Assembly (NCBI GenBank): GCA_019638615.1
Contig: JAHBTL010000011.1
Location: 1-64,000 of the forward strand
Reading direction: 5' to 3'
DNA: 64,000 bases
From: Chitinophagaceae bacterium
Lineage (GTDB): Bacteria > Bacteroidota > Bacteroidia > Chitinophagales > Chitinophagaceae
Below, one piece after another: positions 9,998 through 34,545 of this stretch. Both the position numbers and the translations under genes were made by a program. The notes beneath the pieces were generated by a model. The model had not been told where the DNA came from and did no database searches. It worked only from the letters and a program-made list of their open reading frames with translations. How positions within the stretch are numbered: the first letter of the stretch is position 1; each line of letters opens with the position of its first letter.

Positions 9998-11512
9998 TTA
10001 TAATTCAGCTACGGTATGATGATACATGTTTTTTGCCGCGGGGTTCAGCAATCCTGCGGTATTGTATGGCTTTATTCTTTCCCGGACGGTATCGGTAAAT
10101 ACTTCTATTTCCTGCTGAGATATGCTTGTTTGACCGGTTAGCTTCAGTAAGTCTTTATAAGTGGTTTGAGCAATTTCCTGTACCCGTGGATTGCCGGCTT
10201 CAAGAAAATATTGAACGGGCAGATTGTTTAAGCGACGCTGTTCGTATACAATAGTGAAAGCGAAATACAACATGCTCCACGCATTGAAAAGCTGAAAATG
10301 TTGCATAGTATTATAACATCCTGCCACCAGCAGATCGATCAGCTTCAGCTCTTCAAAAACAGTAGCTTCATACGCTTTCAACCGTGCATATAAGGGCCGA
10401 TCAAAATCCCGGTTTTCATAAAGCATTTGTACAATTCTTTCTATACCAGCCAGTGAATACGCGATGCCTGTGCTGAAAAGAGGATCTATAAACCCGATGG
10501 TATGCGGCATTGCCAGCCAACCATCGCCAAAGCATTTTTCAAGCTTTCCCTGCAGCCTCGGCGATTGTATAATACGGCCCGGTTCAGCAGACAAAGCGCT
10601 TTTGCTGAGTATACGATGGATGTCAGGATATTTTGCCTGCAGCGTATTCCATATTTCATCGGTTGACATTTTTTGTAATGATGCGTTATTGCCATTCAAT
10701 GCAAAACCCCAACTGGTGCGATCGTTGTTAAACCGGAGCGCCCATATCCATCCTTCATCTAATATATGGTGGAGGGCGGAACGATCTGCATTGTAAGGAT
10801 AGTCTGCTGTTGGAATGTTTTTCTGCTGCAGGATTTCCATCCATGTCGGGAGATCATCAAAATGGGAAAATACCGCGAAGGAGTCCGTAAGAAAATCTGC
10901 TGCAGATGATTTTACGGAGAACAGCTTTTTCGCCAGCAACCCGCTGCCTGTTGCATCGATCAGGAACGAAGCCCGGATCGTCATTTTGTCGTCCTTCCGG
11001 TTTGTACTGAATGTCCATTGCCCGTTTGATCGTACTGCCGCTTCTATTTCGGTTGTATCATAGTAATCAATTCCGTACGCTTTCAGTTTGGCTGCAAGAA
11101 AGGCGTCAAAATCGGAACGGAACCAGTTGGTATCAGACATGCTATCGCTCACGCTGGCTGCCACGAGCAATTCATTTGAATGGCGGGTGTCTGTATAAAA
11201 AGGCTTCCCGGGATAATGCTTGAAATAGCTGAAGCCCCTTTTGATACCACAGGCAATTTCAGGATGCGATTGCTGCCAGCTTCCGTATCGCGAAAAATCG
11301 TACAGCCAGGGCAAATTATATTGAGAAGAGAGGGAACGCAATATCATATCGGCAATAGGGGTAGAAGACTCACCGATGGCAAACCGGGGATGCTTTCCTT
11401 TTTCCATCACACAAACTTTAAACCCGCAATTGTTCAGAACGAGCGCTGTGATGGACCCGGCAAACCCGGCGCCGGCAATAAGGATATCATAATGACGGGG
11501 ATGTTCAGCCAT
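9998..11512 (-). CDS. FAD-dependent halogenase-like oxidoreductase
   Basis: 504 residues. An N-terminal Rossmann FAD site GAGFAG (14-19) and ARFAIGES-type segment (PRFAIGESSTP) place it in the flavin-dependent halogenase/geranylgeranyl-reductase superfamily. It also shows CGIKRGFSYF, with Lys91 where halogenases carry a lysine, DATGSG (FAD-binding), and GFIDPLFSTG (340-349), which is typical of halogenases. The WxWxIP motif of tryptophan halogenases is replaced by GWIWAL (254-259), so it may be a hydroxylase or dehydrogenase instead of a halogenase. It is the third gene of an operon with a radical SAM enzyme and an asparagine-synthetase-like protein; its ATG overlaps the radical SAM stop by 8 nt (ATGGCTGA), implying translational coupling. 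The substrate is unknown. Confidence 0.75.
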   Translation of the reverse strand: MAEHPRHYDILIAGAGFAGSITALVLNNCGFKVCVMEKGKHPRFAIGESSTPIADMILRSLSSQYNLPWLYDFSRYGSWQQSHPEIACGIKRGFSYFKHYPGKPFYTDTRHSNELLVAASVSDSMSDTNWFRSDFDAFLAAKLKAYGIDYYDTTEIEAAVRSNGQWTFSTNRKDDKMTIRASFLIDATGSGLLAKKLFSVKSSAADFLTDSFAVFSHFDDLPTWMEILQQKNIPTADYPYNADRSALHHILDEGWIWALRFNNDRTSWGFALNGNNASLQKMSTDEIWNTLQAKYPDIHRILSKSALSAEPGRIIQSPRLQGKLEKCFGDGWLAMPHTIGFIDPLFSTGIAYSLAGIERIVQMLYENRDFDRPLYARLKAYEATVFEELKLIDLLVAGCYNTMQHFQLFNAWSMLYFAFTIVYEQRRLNNLPVQYFLEAGNPRVQEIAQTTYKDLLKLTGQTSISQQEIEVFTDTVRERIKPYNTAGLLNPAAKNMYHHTVAEL

Positions 11513-12449
11513 GATCTTTTTTACAGGTACATTGTATGTTCGGTGCTGTTTGCTGGCTCAGGTTCATCGCTGCCAACCGCTCTTTTCTCTTATCAAAACA
11601 AATGGCGCATCGCGATAAAAAGCCAATATCCCAGGTGTCTGCCAATACCTGTCCCTGCTTTAATGCCAACGCTTTGTCAACAACTTCTTCCAGCATATCC
11701 AGCGAAGGAGGCACGTAATCCTTTTCTTTTAGCAGCACATCCATTATACCGTTGCCGGGTCTTACAGGAATAACTGAGCAGCGCTTCGCCCCGCTCTCAA
11801 ACGCAAATTGTACAGATCGGAGGGTCCATTCGATGTTCTCGTACGGATTGGTAATGTATGGAGGGTTTAAAAGTACAAAAGCCCGTACGTCTACCTGCTG
11901 TTGAGCCAGGTATCGCGCAGCGCTTCTGAAGTCTTCCGGTGTAATTTGTTTGTTGAGTGCCGGCAATACCGCGGGGTGAATGGTTTCCAGCCCCATTGCG
12001 ATCTCCAGTTTCCCGGCCAGCAGGTCGTTGAATGTGCTGCAATGCTGATTGACCAGCTTAGGATGATTTTCCACGGTTACTCTTTTGTAACCGCTGATGC
12101 GTTCCGCTATTGCCGGATATTCCACGGGAGAAATGGCCTTTGTATCAAAAAAATTGCCGTTGTTGTACAGCTTGATATTTTCGGCGGGCGGCAATCTCTC
12201 TAATGCATAATCGATCTGCCGGAGAATGGCGCCAGGTATGGCCTCATCGAGCGTATTCTTCCATAGATCGCACATTAAACATTTAAAAGCACATTCTTTG
12301 CCGGTAAGAAAAACCGTATTAACAGTTTCAATGCCTCCCTGTAAACCCGGCTCTGTTTCGTGCAAGAAATGGTAAGGGATATAAGGATCTACCCTGTTCT
12401 TTGCAGAACGGTATGCAGTAATGGTATGATTGCTGTATCCCTCATGCAT
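11505..12449 (-). CDS. Radical SAM enzyme, unknown substrate
   Basis: 314 residues from the ATG at 12449 (MHEGYSNHT), which overlaps the upstream stop in ATGCATGA; the frame continues 21 codons further into the previous gene. The Fe-S/SAM motif is CAFKCLMC (Cys53, Cys57, Cys60), a CxxxCxxC signature preceded by NTVFLTGKE. The barrel includes KLYNNGNFFD and EIAMGLETIHPAVL; the last pattern recalls Elp3/RaSEA-like radical SAM proteins. Four late cysteines (SRCAICFDK and QCTCKKDHG) could bind an auxiliary Fe-S cluster. It lies between an asparagine-synthetase-like gene and a halogenase-like gene in a coupled operon, which suggests it modifies a small molecule or peptide made by that pathway. No precursor peptide gene was found beside it. 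Confidence 0.82.
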   Translation of the reverse strand: MHEGYSNHTITAYRSAKNRVDPYIPYHFLHETEPGLQGGIETVNTVFLTGKECAFKCLMCDLWKNTLDEAIPGAILRQIDYALERLPPAENIKLYNNGNFFDTKAISPVEYPAIAERISGYKRVTVENHPKLVNQHCSTFNDLLAGKLEIAMGLETIHPAVLPALNKQITPEDFRSAARYLAQQQVDVRAFVLLNPPYITNPYENIEWTLRSVQFAFESGAKRCSVIPVRPGNGIMDVLLKEKDYVPPSLDMLEEVVDKALALKQGQVLADTWDIGFLSRCAICFDKRKERLAAMNLSQQTAPNIQCTCKKDHG

Positions 12450-13761
12450 ACAGCGAGTGAAAATAGTTCCTGTATTCAGCTTCGTTTTTGGCAAATACCG
12501 TATCAAATGCATCGGCTGCTATAGCGCCGGATTGCAGCCTGCGCTTTTCAAATACCGGCATATCAAAACCTGTTACCGCTTTTATACCCCGGCTCACCAC
12601 CTCGCCCTTTAATGCATACAAGGCTTCTTCTTTCCAGTTGGTCAGGGCTATGAAAGGAATACCCTCTGCTACTTCAATTACATTCGGCAGCGCATAAGGG
12701 CTAAATCCGCTGAAACCATATTTCCTGGGAGGCGCATAAGAGCGAACATGTCCGCGGCTTTGACCACCTGAATAAGTAAGCGAGTGTTTGATTTTATCGA
12801 CACCCCATCCTTCCTGGTAAAGCATCATATTATTCAGAACGCTTCTTATGGTAAGTTCAGGATTTGCTTCAATGGGATAATCTTTCAGGTTTTCATCGCC
12901 GCCATCGCCGTCTGCCAGGTATTTCCAGCCGGGATAAAGCTCCCTGATTTTTTTACACAGGGCTAATACCATTGTTGCCGCCTCAAGATCGAGTGATTTA
13001 TAATCTTCGATCACCCGGATGGCTTCTTTGTAATTGACATCAGCTAACGGAACGTCTACCACCTCAAGAAAAAGTGACAGCCCCAATTTATCAAGGAACT
13101 GGTGTGCCTGTTCTGCGTCGGCGCCTCCATTAACCGAAAGGGTAAAGGCTTTCAGCCGTTGCGGAGACATTCCAAGTTTCAGCATCAGGTCATACAATAC
13201 CAAAAACACGGACCCGCTGTCAATTCCTCCCGAAAACAATACGCCTACCGGTTCTTCCGCGGGAATTGACAGCAGCCATTTCCTGCATTCGCCGGCCAGC
13301 GTTTCAATGTATTTTTTTCCGATGGCATCCGGGTCGGTTGGAAGCACATTTCTTTCCGGGGTAAAGAACCGGGTATAAACGGGGTTGGGATCCGGGCACC
13401 CGATTACTTCTAACCTAACGATATGATGCGCGGGCACCATTCTTGTATAAGAGGGGTGGAATTGCTTATGCAGTCCCTTTTGACGGAGGTATTCGTAAAT
13501 TTCGTCCATCCGTTCAGCAACAATGAGCAATGGGCCGGACGTTTGTTTGGCGAGGAAATACCGCATAGGTCTGCCGATAGAGCGGGCCATAAATACCTGG
13601 TTGCCCACTTTTTCCACGATGGCGAACTGCCCGTCTATTTTACGTACTGCGGAGGGATCACCCGAAGTAATGGCTGCCGAGGCTTCCTCCGGGGTCATGT
13701 TGAAAAGAATATTGTTACTATTGTCGAGGAGGCTTACAAAATCGCTCACATACTGATTCAT
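12442..13761 (-). CDS. Asparagine-synthetase-like amidotransferase lacking the N-terminal Cys
   Basis: 439 residues. The C-terminal half is an asparagine synthetase/beta-lactam synthetase-type ATP pyrophosphatase: PP-loop FSGGIDSGS (176-184), ADGDGGDENL and a late FDMPVFEKRRLQSG. The N-terminal ~145 residues resemble the Ntn glutaminase half (FAIVEKVGNQVFMARS), but the protein starts Met-Asn-Gln. The nucleophile Cys that must be residue 2 is absent, so glutamine cannot be used as nitrogen donor. Proteins of this type adenylate a carboxylate and let an amine attack it (beta-lactam synthetase, lasso cyclase), or use free ammonia. True AsnB is longer (about 550-630). It is the first gene of the operon with radical SAM and halogenase-like genes. 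Confidence 0.8.
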   Translation of the reverse strand: MNQYVSDFVSLLDNSNNILFNMTPEEASAAITSGDPSAVRKIDGQFAIVEKVGNQVFMARSIGRPMRYFLAKQTSGPLLIVAERMDEIYEYLRQKGLHKQFHPSYTRMVPAHHIVRLEVIGCPDPNPVYTRFFTPERNVLPTDPDAIGKKYIETLAGECRKWLLSIPAEEPVGVLFSGGIDSGSVFLVLYDLMLKLGMSPQRLKAFTLSVNGGADAEQAHQFLDKLGLSLFLEVVDVPLADVNYKEAIRVIEDYKSLDLEAATMVLALCKKIRELYPGWKYLADGDGGDENLKDYPIEANPELTIRSVLNNMMLYQEGWGVDKIKHSLTYSGGQSRGHVRSYAPPRKYGFSGFSPYALPNVIEVAEGIPFIALTNWKEEALYALKGEVVSRGIKAVTGFDMPVFEKRRLQSGAIAADAFDTVFAKNEAEYRNYFHSLYA

Positions 13762-13792: not shown

Positions 13793-13893
13793 TGGATCAT
13801 TCATCAATTAGTGCAGCGTAAAGAGCGTATTTAAAATTGTTGGAGCAGGTATGATATGCAATGCATGGGACATGCCCTTGCTTTTCAGCCGCA

Positions 13894-13924
13894 GGGTTTC
13901 CAACCTTCAAAAGGTTGGAAACCC
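13894..13924. repeat. Perfect 14-bp hairpin
   Basis: GGGTTTCCAACCTT and AAGGTTGGAAACCC are separated by three bases (CAA). It lies about 100 bp upstream of the biosynthetic operon's -7 box, in a repeat-filled gap. It has the form of an interspersed palindromic repeat and not of a terminator, as no gene ends here. Confidence 0.65.
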
Positions 13925-14048
13925 TTTTCCGAAGAATAAACATTTTGGTGGAGAAGCCATCCTCACAGAAAAAAAGGCAGTTGTCCTGCTGCGAGGGCTG
14001 CTTCACCCAACCGAAGGTCGGGTTCGCAGTGAAAAAAATTACCGTCAT

Positions 14049-31144: not shown

Positions 31145-34100
31145 TCAATATCCGTAAAACAACATTTTTTCATTGCTGATACCTATCGCAATCACCGGCT
31201 TTTGGCTGATGTTTAATTTCAATGCGCTTTTTACATCTCCTTTTATGCTTATGCCGGATTGATACTGCGGCATATAGCTGAAATTGCCTTTGCCGTCATT
31301 TATCAATACACAACCATAATTGGCATCAATGCTTCCAATCTTCAACCGGTTATCCGAGCGGTTCCCGAGCAATAGGAGATCCGTGGTCCCGTCTTTATTA
31401 AAGTCTTCGGCAATAATATTGGTTACAACGGAAAATTGCGCCTGTTGCGGTAAAATCCTTTTTTCAAAGCTTCCTTTTTTATTTAAAAAGCAAACCGACC
31501 GGTTTTCTGTAGCAGCATATACCGAAGCTTTTGCCAGTTCTTCTTTACTGAAAATATCTTTCATTGTTGCATTGGCGTAAGCTTTATAGGAAGTGAATTT
31601 CCGCTTCATCGGGCTTATCTGCTCATTCAATTCATCCCGGCTTACAAATGGATAATTTACTCCCCGGATATAGAAATTCAGGAACGGATCCATGGTGCCA
31701 TTGTTGTCGAAGTCGGCGTAATACAAAGTAGCCGGTTCCTTTTCCGAAATTTGAATTTGCGTGTTTTGTCCTGTATTACCGGCAATAATATCCTCTGCTC
31801 CGTCCCCGTCTATATCTGCAACCTGCAGGCTGAACCATATACCGTTTTCAGGCTTCCCAAAATATTTTTCGGTATGGTCGGTAAATCCTTCCGGTTTATT
31901 CAGGTACAATTTCACAGGCATAAATTCCCCGCACAAGATCAAATCTTTTCTTCCGTCGTTGTCTGCATCCATCCACCGGGCATCGGTAACCATTCCTGCA
32001 AATGAAAAAGGAATTTCTGCCAGTGAAAATTTTCCATTCCCGTCGTTTACCAGTAAATAACTTCTGGGTGGCGCAGGATATTTACCGGGAATAACCCTTC
32101 CTCCCACAAATAGGTCTATATCACCATCGTTGTCAAAATCGCAGGGAAGTACGCACGATTTAGCGGACTCGTTGAGCACAGGAGGCAAACCTTCTGCGAG
32201 TCTAAAATTTCCGCTGCCGTCATTCATATATAATTCATCCTGCAGCATCCAGGTACCGGGTTCATATATGGAATAGCCGCCCTTGGCTATATAAAGGTCT
32301 TCGTACCCATCGCCATCCGCGTCTAAAAAAGCTGCCGCGCCGGTAGTGGTATTGCTTTCATCAATGCTGATACCTGCCGAAGGGAGAAAGCTGCCATCAG
32401 CTTTTTGAACATATATCTTACCCGGTTTAGTTTGATCTCCGCTGATAAAAATATCCTCCAGTCCGTCTTTATTGATATCGGCTTTCGCTGTTACCGGCGC
32501 TGTTTTTGAATACATGAACAGCAGCAATGACTGGCGCTTAAAATCATTTTCATCCATATCGCTGTTGCTGTACTTAATATAGTCGGGCGCCTTTTTAAAT
32601 AAGGGAGCGCCTGCCGGCGGAACGGCTGCATAGGATTGCGTGCCGGGAGCATAATGGATCATCATTTTTTGATCGGCTGAAATATTTTTCAGCCATTGAG
32701 CACTGTTGTCCGGCCATATGATCCTGACAGAATCAACAGAGGTCTTTTGGTCTAAACCAAAATGTAAAGTGGTTGTAACACAGGAAACAAATCCACGCAC
32801 GGGATTCAATTCCTGGTACTGCATGGTATTGCCGGAGAATACATATATTTTGGCGCCTATAGCGTGTATATTGGGGGTTTTAAATACAAGCTGCATTGAA
32901 ATATAATGGGAGTTGTGCTGCTCCCTGCTCATATTTTTATAGATCAATGCAGGACTGTTTATCTGGTTTACAATAATATCCAGGTCTCCGTCATTGTCAA
33001 GGTCTGCATATACGGCGCCATTGGATAGTCCCGGCTGATCCATCCCCCATTCTTTCACCCTGTTTGTAAAGGTCAGGTCGCGGTTGTTTTTATAGATGTA
33101 ATTGTTCAGCTTTGTAGAAGGCATGGCGGTAATAAGATCCATCAGCTCTACCGGCTTACCGTCCATGGTCTGTTTTATTTTATAATCTCCGTAGTAGCGT
33201 AAAAAATCTTTATTGGTGTAATCCTGTAAAAAGCCATTGGTAATGAACAGGTCTTTATAACCATCGTTATCGAAATCAGCCAGTAAGGGGCACCAGCTCC
33301 AGTCTGTATTGGAAACACCGGCAAACTGCCCGATTTCACTAAAAGAGCTATCGCCATTGTTCAATTGCAGCATGTTGCGCATATACTGTTTGTTCAGACC
33401 CTGTTCTGTCATCAGTTGAAACGATTCGTAGCTTTCCTGTATTTGCAGCAGCTTTTGCCGCTGGTTGTCTTCCGGAAGCATATCAAGCGATATGATGTCG
33501 GGCAGGCCATCGTTGTTAAAGTCTGCAATATCAACCCCCATAGAGAACTGGGCCAAATGCCTGAAGTATTGCCTGGAGCTTTCCCTGAAACTGCCATTGT
33601 GATTATTGATGTATAAATAATCCGGCTCATTGTAATCATTGGTTACATATATATCCTGCCACCCGTCTTTATCGATATCTGTTATAACAATACCCAGTCC
33701 AAAAGTGAGGGCGTTTTGTATAATCCCTGCCTTTTGCGAAACATCCGTGAAATGATTGCCGCGGTTTTCGTACAATTTATTACCGGCCAGTTCATCCGTT
33801 CCTTTCCTGTATGCGGCCAGCTCCCTATTGTCAACCGGCGTAGTGCTGTGATTCAATAAAAACAGATCCAGGTCGCCGTCATTGTCATAATCAAAAAAAG
33901 CCGCCTGTGTGCTGTAGCTTTTATCATTGAGCCCAAATTCGCCGGCTTTTTCCTCAAACGTCAGGTCGCCTTTATTAATAAAAAGCTGGTTTTTCCGCAG
34001 CTCATCCGGAACCCTGCCTGAACGGCAAACATAAATATCCAGTAGCCCATCACTATTTACATCAGCCATTGTTACGCCTGTTGTCCAACTGCCTGGTTTT

Positions 34101-34435
34101 CCTGATAATTCATCGCATGCAGATTTTGTGATATCCCTGAACTTCATATTGCCGAGGTTTAAGAATAGTTTGTTTGGCTGCATGTTGGCCGTAAAAAAAA
34201 TATCCTGCAAACCGTCATTATTAATATCCCCAACGGCTACTCCTGCGCCGTTGTACAAATAGTCGTACACCAGTACGTTCAACTGTTCTGTTTCAACAAT
34301 ATCATTACTGAAACGTACCCCTGTTTCTTTGGGAGACAATAATTTAAATAAAGGAGATTCCTGCGCCTGGCCGGAAGAAAATACAAACACAAATGAAAAA
34401 ACAAGTGTTACTATCTTTAAACAGTGTGCTTTCAT
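31145..34435 (-). CDS. Secreted VCBS/FG-GAP repeat protein with ASPIC/UnbV domain
   Basis: 1096 residues from the ATG at 34435 (MKAHCLKIVTLVF), chosen because it begins the signal peptide ending SGQAQ. Many FG-GAP-like blades, each with a calcium-type DxDxDG motif (GDINNDGLQDIFF, DVNSDGLLDIYV, DYDNDGDLDLFL, DIDKDGWQDIYV and more), should fold as two beta-propellers. Between them an ASPIC/UnbV-like segment (DSVRIIWPDNSAQWL) is visible. The function of such proteins (CRTAC1-like) is mostly unknown; they occur often near SusCD loci and may bind glycan or protein outside the cell. It is on the same strand as module 1 and ends about 200 bp before its sigma gene. Confidence 0.85.
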   Translation of the reverse strand: MKAHCLKIVTLVFSFVFVFSSGQAQESPLFKLLSPKETGVRFSNDIVETEQLNVLVYDYLYNGAGVAVGDINNDGLQDIFFTANMQPNKLFLNLGNMKFRDITKSACDELSGKPGSWTTGVTMADVNSDGLLDIYVCRSGRVPDELRKNQLFINKGDLTFEEKAGEFGLNDKSYSTQAAFFDYDNDGDLDLFLLNHSTTPVDNRELAAYRKGTDELAGNKLYENRGNHFTDVSQKAGIIQNALTFGLGIVITDIDKDGWQDIYVTNDYNEPDYLYINNHNGSFRESSRQYFRHLAQFSMGVDIADFNNDGLPDIISLDMLPEDNQRQKLLQIQESYESFQLMTEQGLNKQYMRNMLQLNNGDSSFSEIGQFAGVSNTDWSWCPLLADFDNDGYKDLFITNGFLQDYTNKDFLRYYGDYKIKQTMDGKPVELMDLITAMPSTKLNNYIYKNNRDLTFTNRVKEWGMDQPGLSNGAVYADLDNDGDLDIIVNQINSPALIYKNMSREQHNSHYISMQLVFKTPNIHAIGAKIYVFSGNTMQYQELNPVRGFVSCVTTTLHFGLDQKTSVDSVRIIWPDNSAQWLKNISADQKMMIHYAPGTQSYAAVPPAGAPLFKKAPDYIKYSNSDMDENDFKRQSLLLFMYSKTAPVTAKADINKDGLEDIFISGDQTKPGKIYVQKADGSFLPSAGISIDESNTTTGAAAFLDADGDGYEDLYIAKGGYSIYEPGTWMLQDELYMNDGSGNFRLAEGLPPVLNESAKSCVLPCDFDNDGDIDLFVGGRVIPGKYPAPPRSYLLVNDGNGKFSLAEIPFSFAGMVTDARWMDADNDGRKDLILCGEFMPVKLYLNKPEGFTDHTEKYFGKPENGIWFSLQVADIDGDGAEDIIAGNTGQNTQIQISEKEPATLYYADFDNNGTMDPFLNFYIRGVNYPFVSRDELNEQISPMKRKFTSYKAYANATMKDIFSKEELAKASVYAATENRSVCFLNKKGSFEKRILPQQAQFSVVTNIIAEDFNKDGTTDLLLLGNRSDNRLKIGSIDANYGCVLINDGKGNFSYMPQYQSGISIKGDVKSALKLNISQKPVIAIGISNEKMLFYGY

Positions 34436-34545
34436 ATTACAACAGATTAATGCAACCTGTTTCACAATAGCCGCAATGAATTTAACACATGAAACAGGCT
34501 ATAAAGATAGGTTTGTTCAGGAAAGAAATGGTCGCAGACCTGTCC

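Follow-up and report, generated by a model that had tools for sequence, protein, structure and literature searches.

We analysed a 64,000-nt stretch of contig JAHBTL010000011.1 (GCA_019638615.1) from a Chitinophagaceae bacterium, referred to here as the window. Three consecutive genes lie on its minus strand. ASN (12442..13761) encodes a predicted 439-amino-acid (aa) ATP-dependent ligase of the AsnB/β-lactam-synthetase type that lacks the N-terminal glutaminase cysteine; RSAM (11505..12449) encodes a radical S-adenosylmethionine (SAM) enzyme, with a probable ATG start at 12449 in a frame that is open to 12512; and HAL (9998..11512) encodes a predicted 504-aa flavin-dependent halogenase, nearest to PltM and tetracycline 7-halogenase. 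The end of ASN overlaps the start of RSAM by 8 nt (ATGCATGA, 12449–12442), and the end of RSAM overlaps the start of HAL by the same length (ATGGCTGA, 11512–11505). Both exact overlaps, which an earlier note on this DNA had described, are read directly from the sequence and hold if RSAM starts at 12449. Comparison with other genomes strongly suggests that the trio belongs to a larger conserved system, together with a long FG-GAP-type protein that we call LONG.

Conservation of the trio

Loci were compared in named genomes, taking the best 80 of the 305 found and counting genes as adjacent when the upstream gene lay on the same strand within 500 nt. ASN and RSAM adjoin in 61/80 of these loci and RSAM and HAL in 40/80, and the full trio occurs in order in 32/80. 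The arrangement therefore recurs elsewhere, a point on which the earlier note had let its proposal stand or fall. An in-frame ATG is found at exactly −8 in 34 of the 61 ASN–RSAM junctions, the commonest position, which favours 12449 over the longest-open-reading-frame (ORF) start at 12512 and makes it the likely start of RSAM; among RSAM–HAL junctions, 10/40 have an ATG at −8. The suggestion that the three proteins are made together is supported. By record title, the named loci come from Bacteroidota, Balneolota, Planctomycetota and one Nitrospinaceae genome, and their ASN proteins are 56–69% identical to that of the window.

No conserved precursor peptide emerged near the core. The search, confined to 1.5 kb around the core at 84 loci plus the window, found no small-ORF group common to more than four loci, and the largest group is implausible as a precursor. 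In a Pfam/NCBIfam-type domain scan, the genes immediately flanking the trio encode an M28 peptidase and a protein of the apiosidase type, not a transporter, a non-ribosomal peptide synthetase or a polyketide synthase (PKS). The window thus agrees with the earlier note, which had seen none of these, and no peptide precursor, beside the trio. In a minority of loci the trio has an MFS gene (cluster c9) nearby, and members of this cluster occur in 6 loci; the one c9 protein scanned matches PF07690, and aromatic-acid symporter models stay below their cut-offs. Upstream of ASN, a near-perfect inverted repeat, GGGTTTCCAACCTT/AAGGTTGGAAACCC, was spotted by eye at about 13893–13926 of the window and resembles a repetitive extragenic palindromic (REP) element or a terminator.

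Enzyme classes of the trio

The three enzyme types named in the earlier note were borne out by profile matches and conserved motifs. ASN matches PF00733 (44 bits; cut-off 21) and has the PP-loop SGGxDS and two-domain fold of the AsnB superfamily. The glutaminase cysteine is missing: Met-Cys occurs within the first 45 aa in 0/69 rows, one of which is a fragment, and no cysteine occurs within the first 4 aa in any of 18 aligned members. In this, and in being shorter (about 440 aa), ASN differs from AsnB, β-lactam synthetase, carbapenam synthetase and the hydroxyamidotransferase TsnB9, to whose structures it is 11–18% identical. Unlike in the β-lactam and carbapenam systems, no β-lactam gene was present among the scanned neighbours of the trio.

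RSAM scores 24.7 bits against PF04055, slightly below the cut-off of 29.5, and carries CxxxCxxC in 82/82 aligned rows, a set that takes in the window and two duplicates (C74, C78 and C81 in the numbering of the long ORF). Four more C-terminal cysteines are each kept in 74–81 of the 82 rows. The sole NCBIfam match is to the archaeosine radical SAM enzyme RaSEA (TIGR01210); it is weak, at 94.9 bits, but spans nearly the whole length of RSAM. RaSEA is thought to perform C–N cleavage. Both enzymes accompany a ligase or transferase partner, which is ArcS for RaSEA and the AsnB-like ASN for RSAM. The two differ in that RaSEA is archaeal, whereas RSAM is bacterial and falls far under the family cut-off of 212 bits. 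In the archaeal order of events, ArcS adds lysine and RaSEA then completes the conversion (PMC11298593). A distant relative of RSAM (25% identity) is found on the Streptomyces plasmid pFRL3 (L204:11923-13038), beside a P450, a serine hydroxymethyltransferase and a carbamoyltransferase; it perhaps belongs to another pathway that uses this enzyme family.

HAL matches PF04820 (59.5 bits; cut-off 21), and its nearest Protein Data Bank (PDB) matches in a profile search are PltM, the phenolic flavin-dependent halogenase of the pyoluteorin cluster (E = 1.1e-66), and tetracycline 7-halogenase (about 1e-60), the match covering about 400 of the 504 positions. HAL shares with both the catalytic lysine, the GES motif, the flavin adenine dinucleotide (FAD) site and the WxW motif. 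The glycines of the FAD-binding GxGxxG (G14, G16 and G19) are present in 18/18 aligned members, as is W255, with W257 in 17/18. The motif containing these tryptophans, WxWxIP, ends in P in 2/18 and in R in 16/18, so that the IP of PltM and tetracycline 7-halogenase is LR in most HAL members. HAL also differs from them in its setting, as part of an overlapping gene run with ASN and RSAM and, in the window, with no polyketide gene adjoining the trio. K91 is lysine in 18/18 members and aligns with the catalytic K87 of PltM; the PltM K87A variant is reported to be inactive (PMC6424973). HAL is thus a predicted flavin-dependent halogenase of the PltM-like kind, and the earlier description, 'flavin oxidation or halogenation', can be narrowed towards the second term.

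HAL is not a constant member of the system. Of 36 RSAM genomes probed for it, 34 have none at the RSAM locus; among these 34, a strong match (>500 bits) lies elsewhere in 8 and nowhere in 26. The oxygen need of flavin halogenases is no simple explanation for this absence, because the 26 genomes include groups that, by record title, are usually aerobic.

Envelope-type partners

LONG is a protein of about 1,190 aa, in many cases with an N-terminus like that of a lipoprotein, in which TPR repeats, an FG-GAP propeller and an UnbV domain are followed by a conserved 440-aa C-terminal region. Many residues of this region, including Cys743 and several tryptophans, are invariant in 75/75 rows (73 distinct), and a loose lipobox-like pattern occurs within the first 70 aa in 42 of the 75. 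A second protein, SHORT (about 600 aa), consists of FG-GAP and UnbV alone and often has beside it a membrane component, UnbU/RnfD-like in some cases and a multihaem cytochrome in others. The genes adjoining 58 distinct SHORT genes include UnbU-like genes in 22 cases, ASN or RSAM in 18, LONG in 15 and a protein with at least three CxxCH motifs in 9; UnbU/RnfD-like neighbours were called with our own profile, and Pfam names were obtained for examples. LONG, SHORT and the membrane component look extracytoplasmic.

LONG lies within the DNA examined around 34 of the 80 named trio loci. Every part of the system is present in some cultured isolates, among them Mucilaginibacter lappiensis ATCC BAA-1855 (L024) and Parafilimonas terrae DSM 28286 (L017 and L184). 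In the genome that contains the window, two copies of LONG, SHORT and the UnbU-like gene are grouped at 85,765–95,722 of the same contig (G000:C3), about 72 kb from the trio, which is why the window does not show them. These LONG copies share 78% and 81% identity with the pair of LONG genes that follow the trio in another locus (L011). The earlier note had seen in the trio a compact pathway; the three-gene unit stands but is incomplete, since it forms part of a larger system that also includes envelope-type proteins and an UnbU/RnfD-like membrane protein.

Some related arrangements were seen in passing. The window itself encodes a 1,106-aa FG-GAP/UnbV protein (31145–34465, minus strand) that is without the GSCP motif conserved in the C-terminal region of LONG. 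In four loci (L050, L067, L070 and L086; for example, L086:12996-16453), ASN, RSAM and SHORT are followed by haem-motif proteins, and a strong HAL match is absent from all four genomes. The L070 protein matches the HZS_alpha middle domain, the L086 protein hits hydrazine synthase beta-gamma models with scores under the cut-offs, and the others were assigned by clustering.

Co-occurrence across genomes

The window's order was sampled with 298 genomes, five of which have RSAM (G000, G020, G231, G283 and G214); ASN exceeds 780 bits in exactly these five, the next best score being 26 bits. LONG, scored by its C-terminal region, exceeds 740 bits in four of them (all but G214; next best 37 bits), and the UnbU-like protein reaches about 500 bits in the same four only (next best 126 bits). 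A strong match to either was found in 0/293 RSAM-negative genomes of the order. The only other genome sampled from the window's genus (G265) has no RSAM, ASN, LONG or UnbU-like protein at these scores.

The association extends beyond the order. Named RSAM loci led to 49 genomes, of which 45 have LONG; dropping the five that already showed it in the locus leaves 40 of 44. In 170 genomes of a planctomycete family, sampled around the genome of locus L072 (G334), 108 have both RSAM and LONG, 5 only RSAM, 21 only LONG and 36 neither; RSAM was cut at E = 1e-30, and one weak LONG match (G484) was scored as absent. LONG is thus found in 108/113 RSAM genomes against 21/57 others (Fisher P = 7e-17, kinship ignored), so that its restriction to RSAM genomes, complete in the window's order, is looser in this family. 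Of 18 planctomycete genomes, 16 have a full-strength ASN match and one a contig-edge fragment; in most of them ASN does not adjoin RSAM.

Five RSAM genomes have no strong LONG match (G332, G320, G318, G346 and G214, corresponding to loci L068, L050, L048, L089 and L010). In four of these, SHORT lies beside ASN or RSAM; L068 shows neither LONG nor SHORT. Such genomes perhaps carry a form of the system that does without LONG, or their assemblies may have a gap.

Comparison with enediyne and mycofactocin systems

The matches of the UnbU-like protein include 'enediyne biosynthesis protein UnbU' on Streptomyces plasmids, where two regions encode an FG-GAP-type (VCBS or CRTAC1) protein, then UnbU, then a type I PKS. 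In this UnbV–UnbU pair, an FG-GAP-type protein adjoins an RnfD-like membrane protein in the same order as SHORT and the UnbU-like protein; the similarity of UnbU to the UnbU-like protein, however, is weak. Against our own profiles, the Streptomyces proteins score 160–187 bits (SHORT) and 61–70 bits (UnbU), and a Serratia pair scores 171 and 74. Some other RnfD-like proteins (119–126 bits) and other FG-GAP proteins (up to 364 bits) score higher, so the likeness is an architectural parallel and we make no claim of membership. The LONG C-terminal profile had no match in three compared UnbV-like proteins from PKS-type clusters, and no PKS was found among the two scanned neighbours of the trio or in the partner group, for which the four partner genes of locus L100 were domain-scanned and the rest of that locus read as ORFs. 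In a genome of the window's family (G189; L117:3-3773), an FG-GAP/UnbV-type gene and an UnbU/RnfD-like gene are followed by an ORF that by eye is ketosynthase-like, an arrangement resembling enediyne cassettes.

The mycofactocin system offers a parallel in its mode of discovery, from radical SAM genes and a co-occurring client set; Haft (2011, PMC3023750) describes its biosynthetic genes as co-occurring sporadically with client proteins. The two differ in that no precursor peptide was found near the trio, and in that the partners of the trio are envelope-type FG-GAP proteins rather than nicotinoproteins.

Discussion

We propose, tentatively and at somewhat short of even odds, that the trio carries out the biosynthesis, in the cytoplasm, for a conserved multi-gene system, making a small molecule or modification used by envelope proteins. 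Our confidence differs between its parts: it is strong for the predicted operon and enzyme classes, the conserved order and the membership of a larger system with LONG, moderate for the use of the trio's product by the envelope partners, and weak for the chemistry. The P value for the association of RSAM with LONG in the window's order (Fisher P = 1.6e-8) overstates the evidence, because three of the five RSAM genomes belong to one genus.

As to the chemistry, ASN would adenylate a carboxylate and couple it to an amine, with something other than glutamine-derived ammonia as the acceptor. A radical step on the conjugate by RSAM might follow, perhaps a RaSEA-like C–N cleavage; by analogy with ArcS and RaSEA, the unit attached by ASN would bear an amine, and the resulting conjugate would be the substrate of RSAM. 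In lineages that have it, HAL could halogenate an electron-rich ring. The product may be a small cofactor or electron carrier, or, less probably, a protein modification, that the envelope proteins would bind or use.

An unlikely but serious alternative is that the trio makes a halogenated, diffusible metabolite, with LONG, SHORT and the UnbU-like protein exporting or finishing it or protecting the producer, roles that UnbV and UnbU perhaps have in enediyne clusters. The resemblance of HAL to natural-product halogenases fits a secreted product, as do the MFS gene near the trio in several loci and the arrangement of SHORT and the UnbU-like gene, which is that of the pair beside the type I PKS on the two Streptomyces plasmids. 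However, the MFS gene is confined to a minority of loci, the three UnbV-like proteins from PKS clusters lack the LONG C-terminal match, and the same core across phyla, with its level of ASN identity, fits a long-kept trait better than an arms-race metabolite.

We consider it rather improbable that ASN, RSAM and HAL instead act on LONG or SHORT themselves, altering side chains before these proteins are exported. Tryptophylquinone enzymes are matured in this way by LodB/QhpG-type flavoproteins and by radical SAM enzymes, and the best NCBIfam models for HAL, all below their cut-offs, include QhpG, LodB and GoxB. The invariant Cys743 and tryptophans of LONG would offer candidate sites, and the lack of a separate precursor peptide nearby fits a protein substrate. 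In the PDB search, however, HAL matches PltM far better than the peptidyl tryptophan dihydroxylase 7ctq (1.1e-66 against 1.4e-6), and neither Pfam nor NCBIfam reports a peptide-recognition domain on ASN or RSAM.

That the three enzymes form a free-standing pathway, linked to LONG and the UnbU-like protein by shared ancestry only, is very unlikely: the partners are not adjacent to the trio in the window and a few genomes carry ASN and RSAM without LONG, but the 293 RSAM-negative genomes of the order contain no strong match to either partner, and LONG lies near many of the named trio loci. Least probable of all, to the point of near dismissal, is an archaeosine-type modification of tRNA or a nucleoside with RSAM as a bacterial RaSEA, a reading that draws on the only NCBIfam match of RSAM and on the ArcS–RaSEA sequence of steps but is opposed by the score of less than half the cut-off, by the lack of an ArcS or TGT match among the scanned neighbours (a genome-wide search was not made) and by the co-occurring envelope-type proteins, which have no obvious place in tRNA modification.

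A bolder form of our proposal, in which a biosynthetic arm serves envelope proteins, is speculative and rather improbable: ASN, RSAM and HAL would make an undescribed, probably halogenated redox cofactor. It would serve a new class of electron-transfer complex in the envelopes of Bacteroidota, Balneolota, Planctomycetota and Nitrospinota, formed by LONG, SHORT and either an UnbU-like protein or a multihaem cytochrome, and the enediyne UnbV/UnbU pair would be a diverted version of this module.

The earlier note recognised no named pathway in the trio, and among the open-access papers listed by our searches no title or opening of an abstract described the trio or its system with the partners; the system is apparently both widespread and undescribed. 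We know of no role for bacterial UnbV/CRTAC1-type FG-GAP proteins and UnbU-like membrane proteins, which are also sited in enediyne clusters, and the system provides a first comparative handle on them. Three enzymes that stood as orphans now belong to a defined system that can be tested, with partners that can be named in isolates available in culture. Should the product prove to be a cofactor, it would be one of the few whose discovery began with genome co-occurrence.

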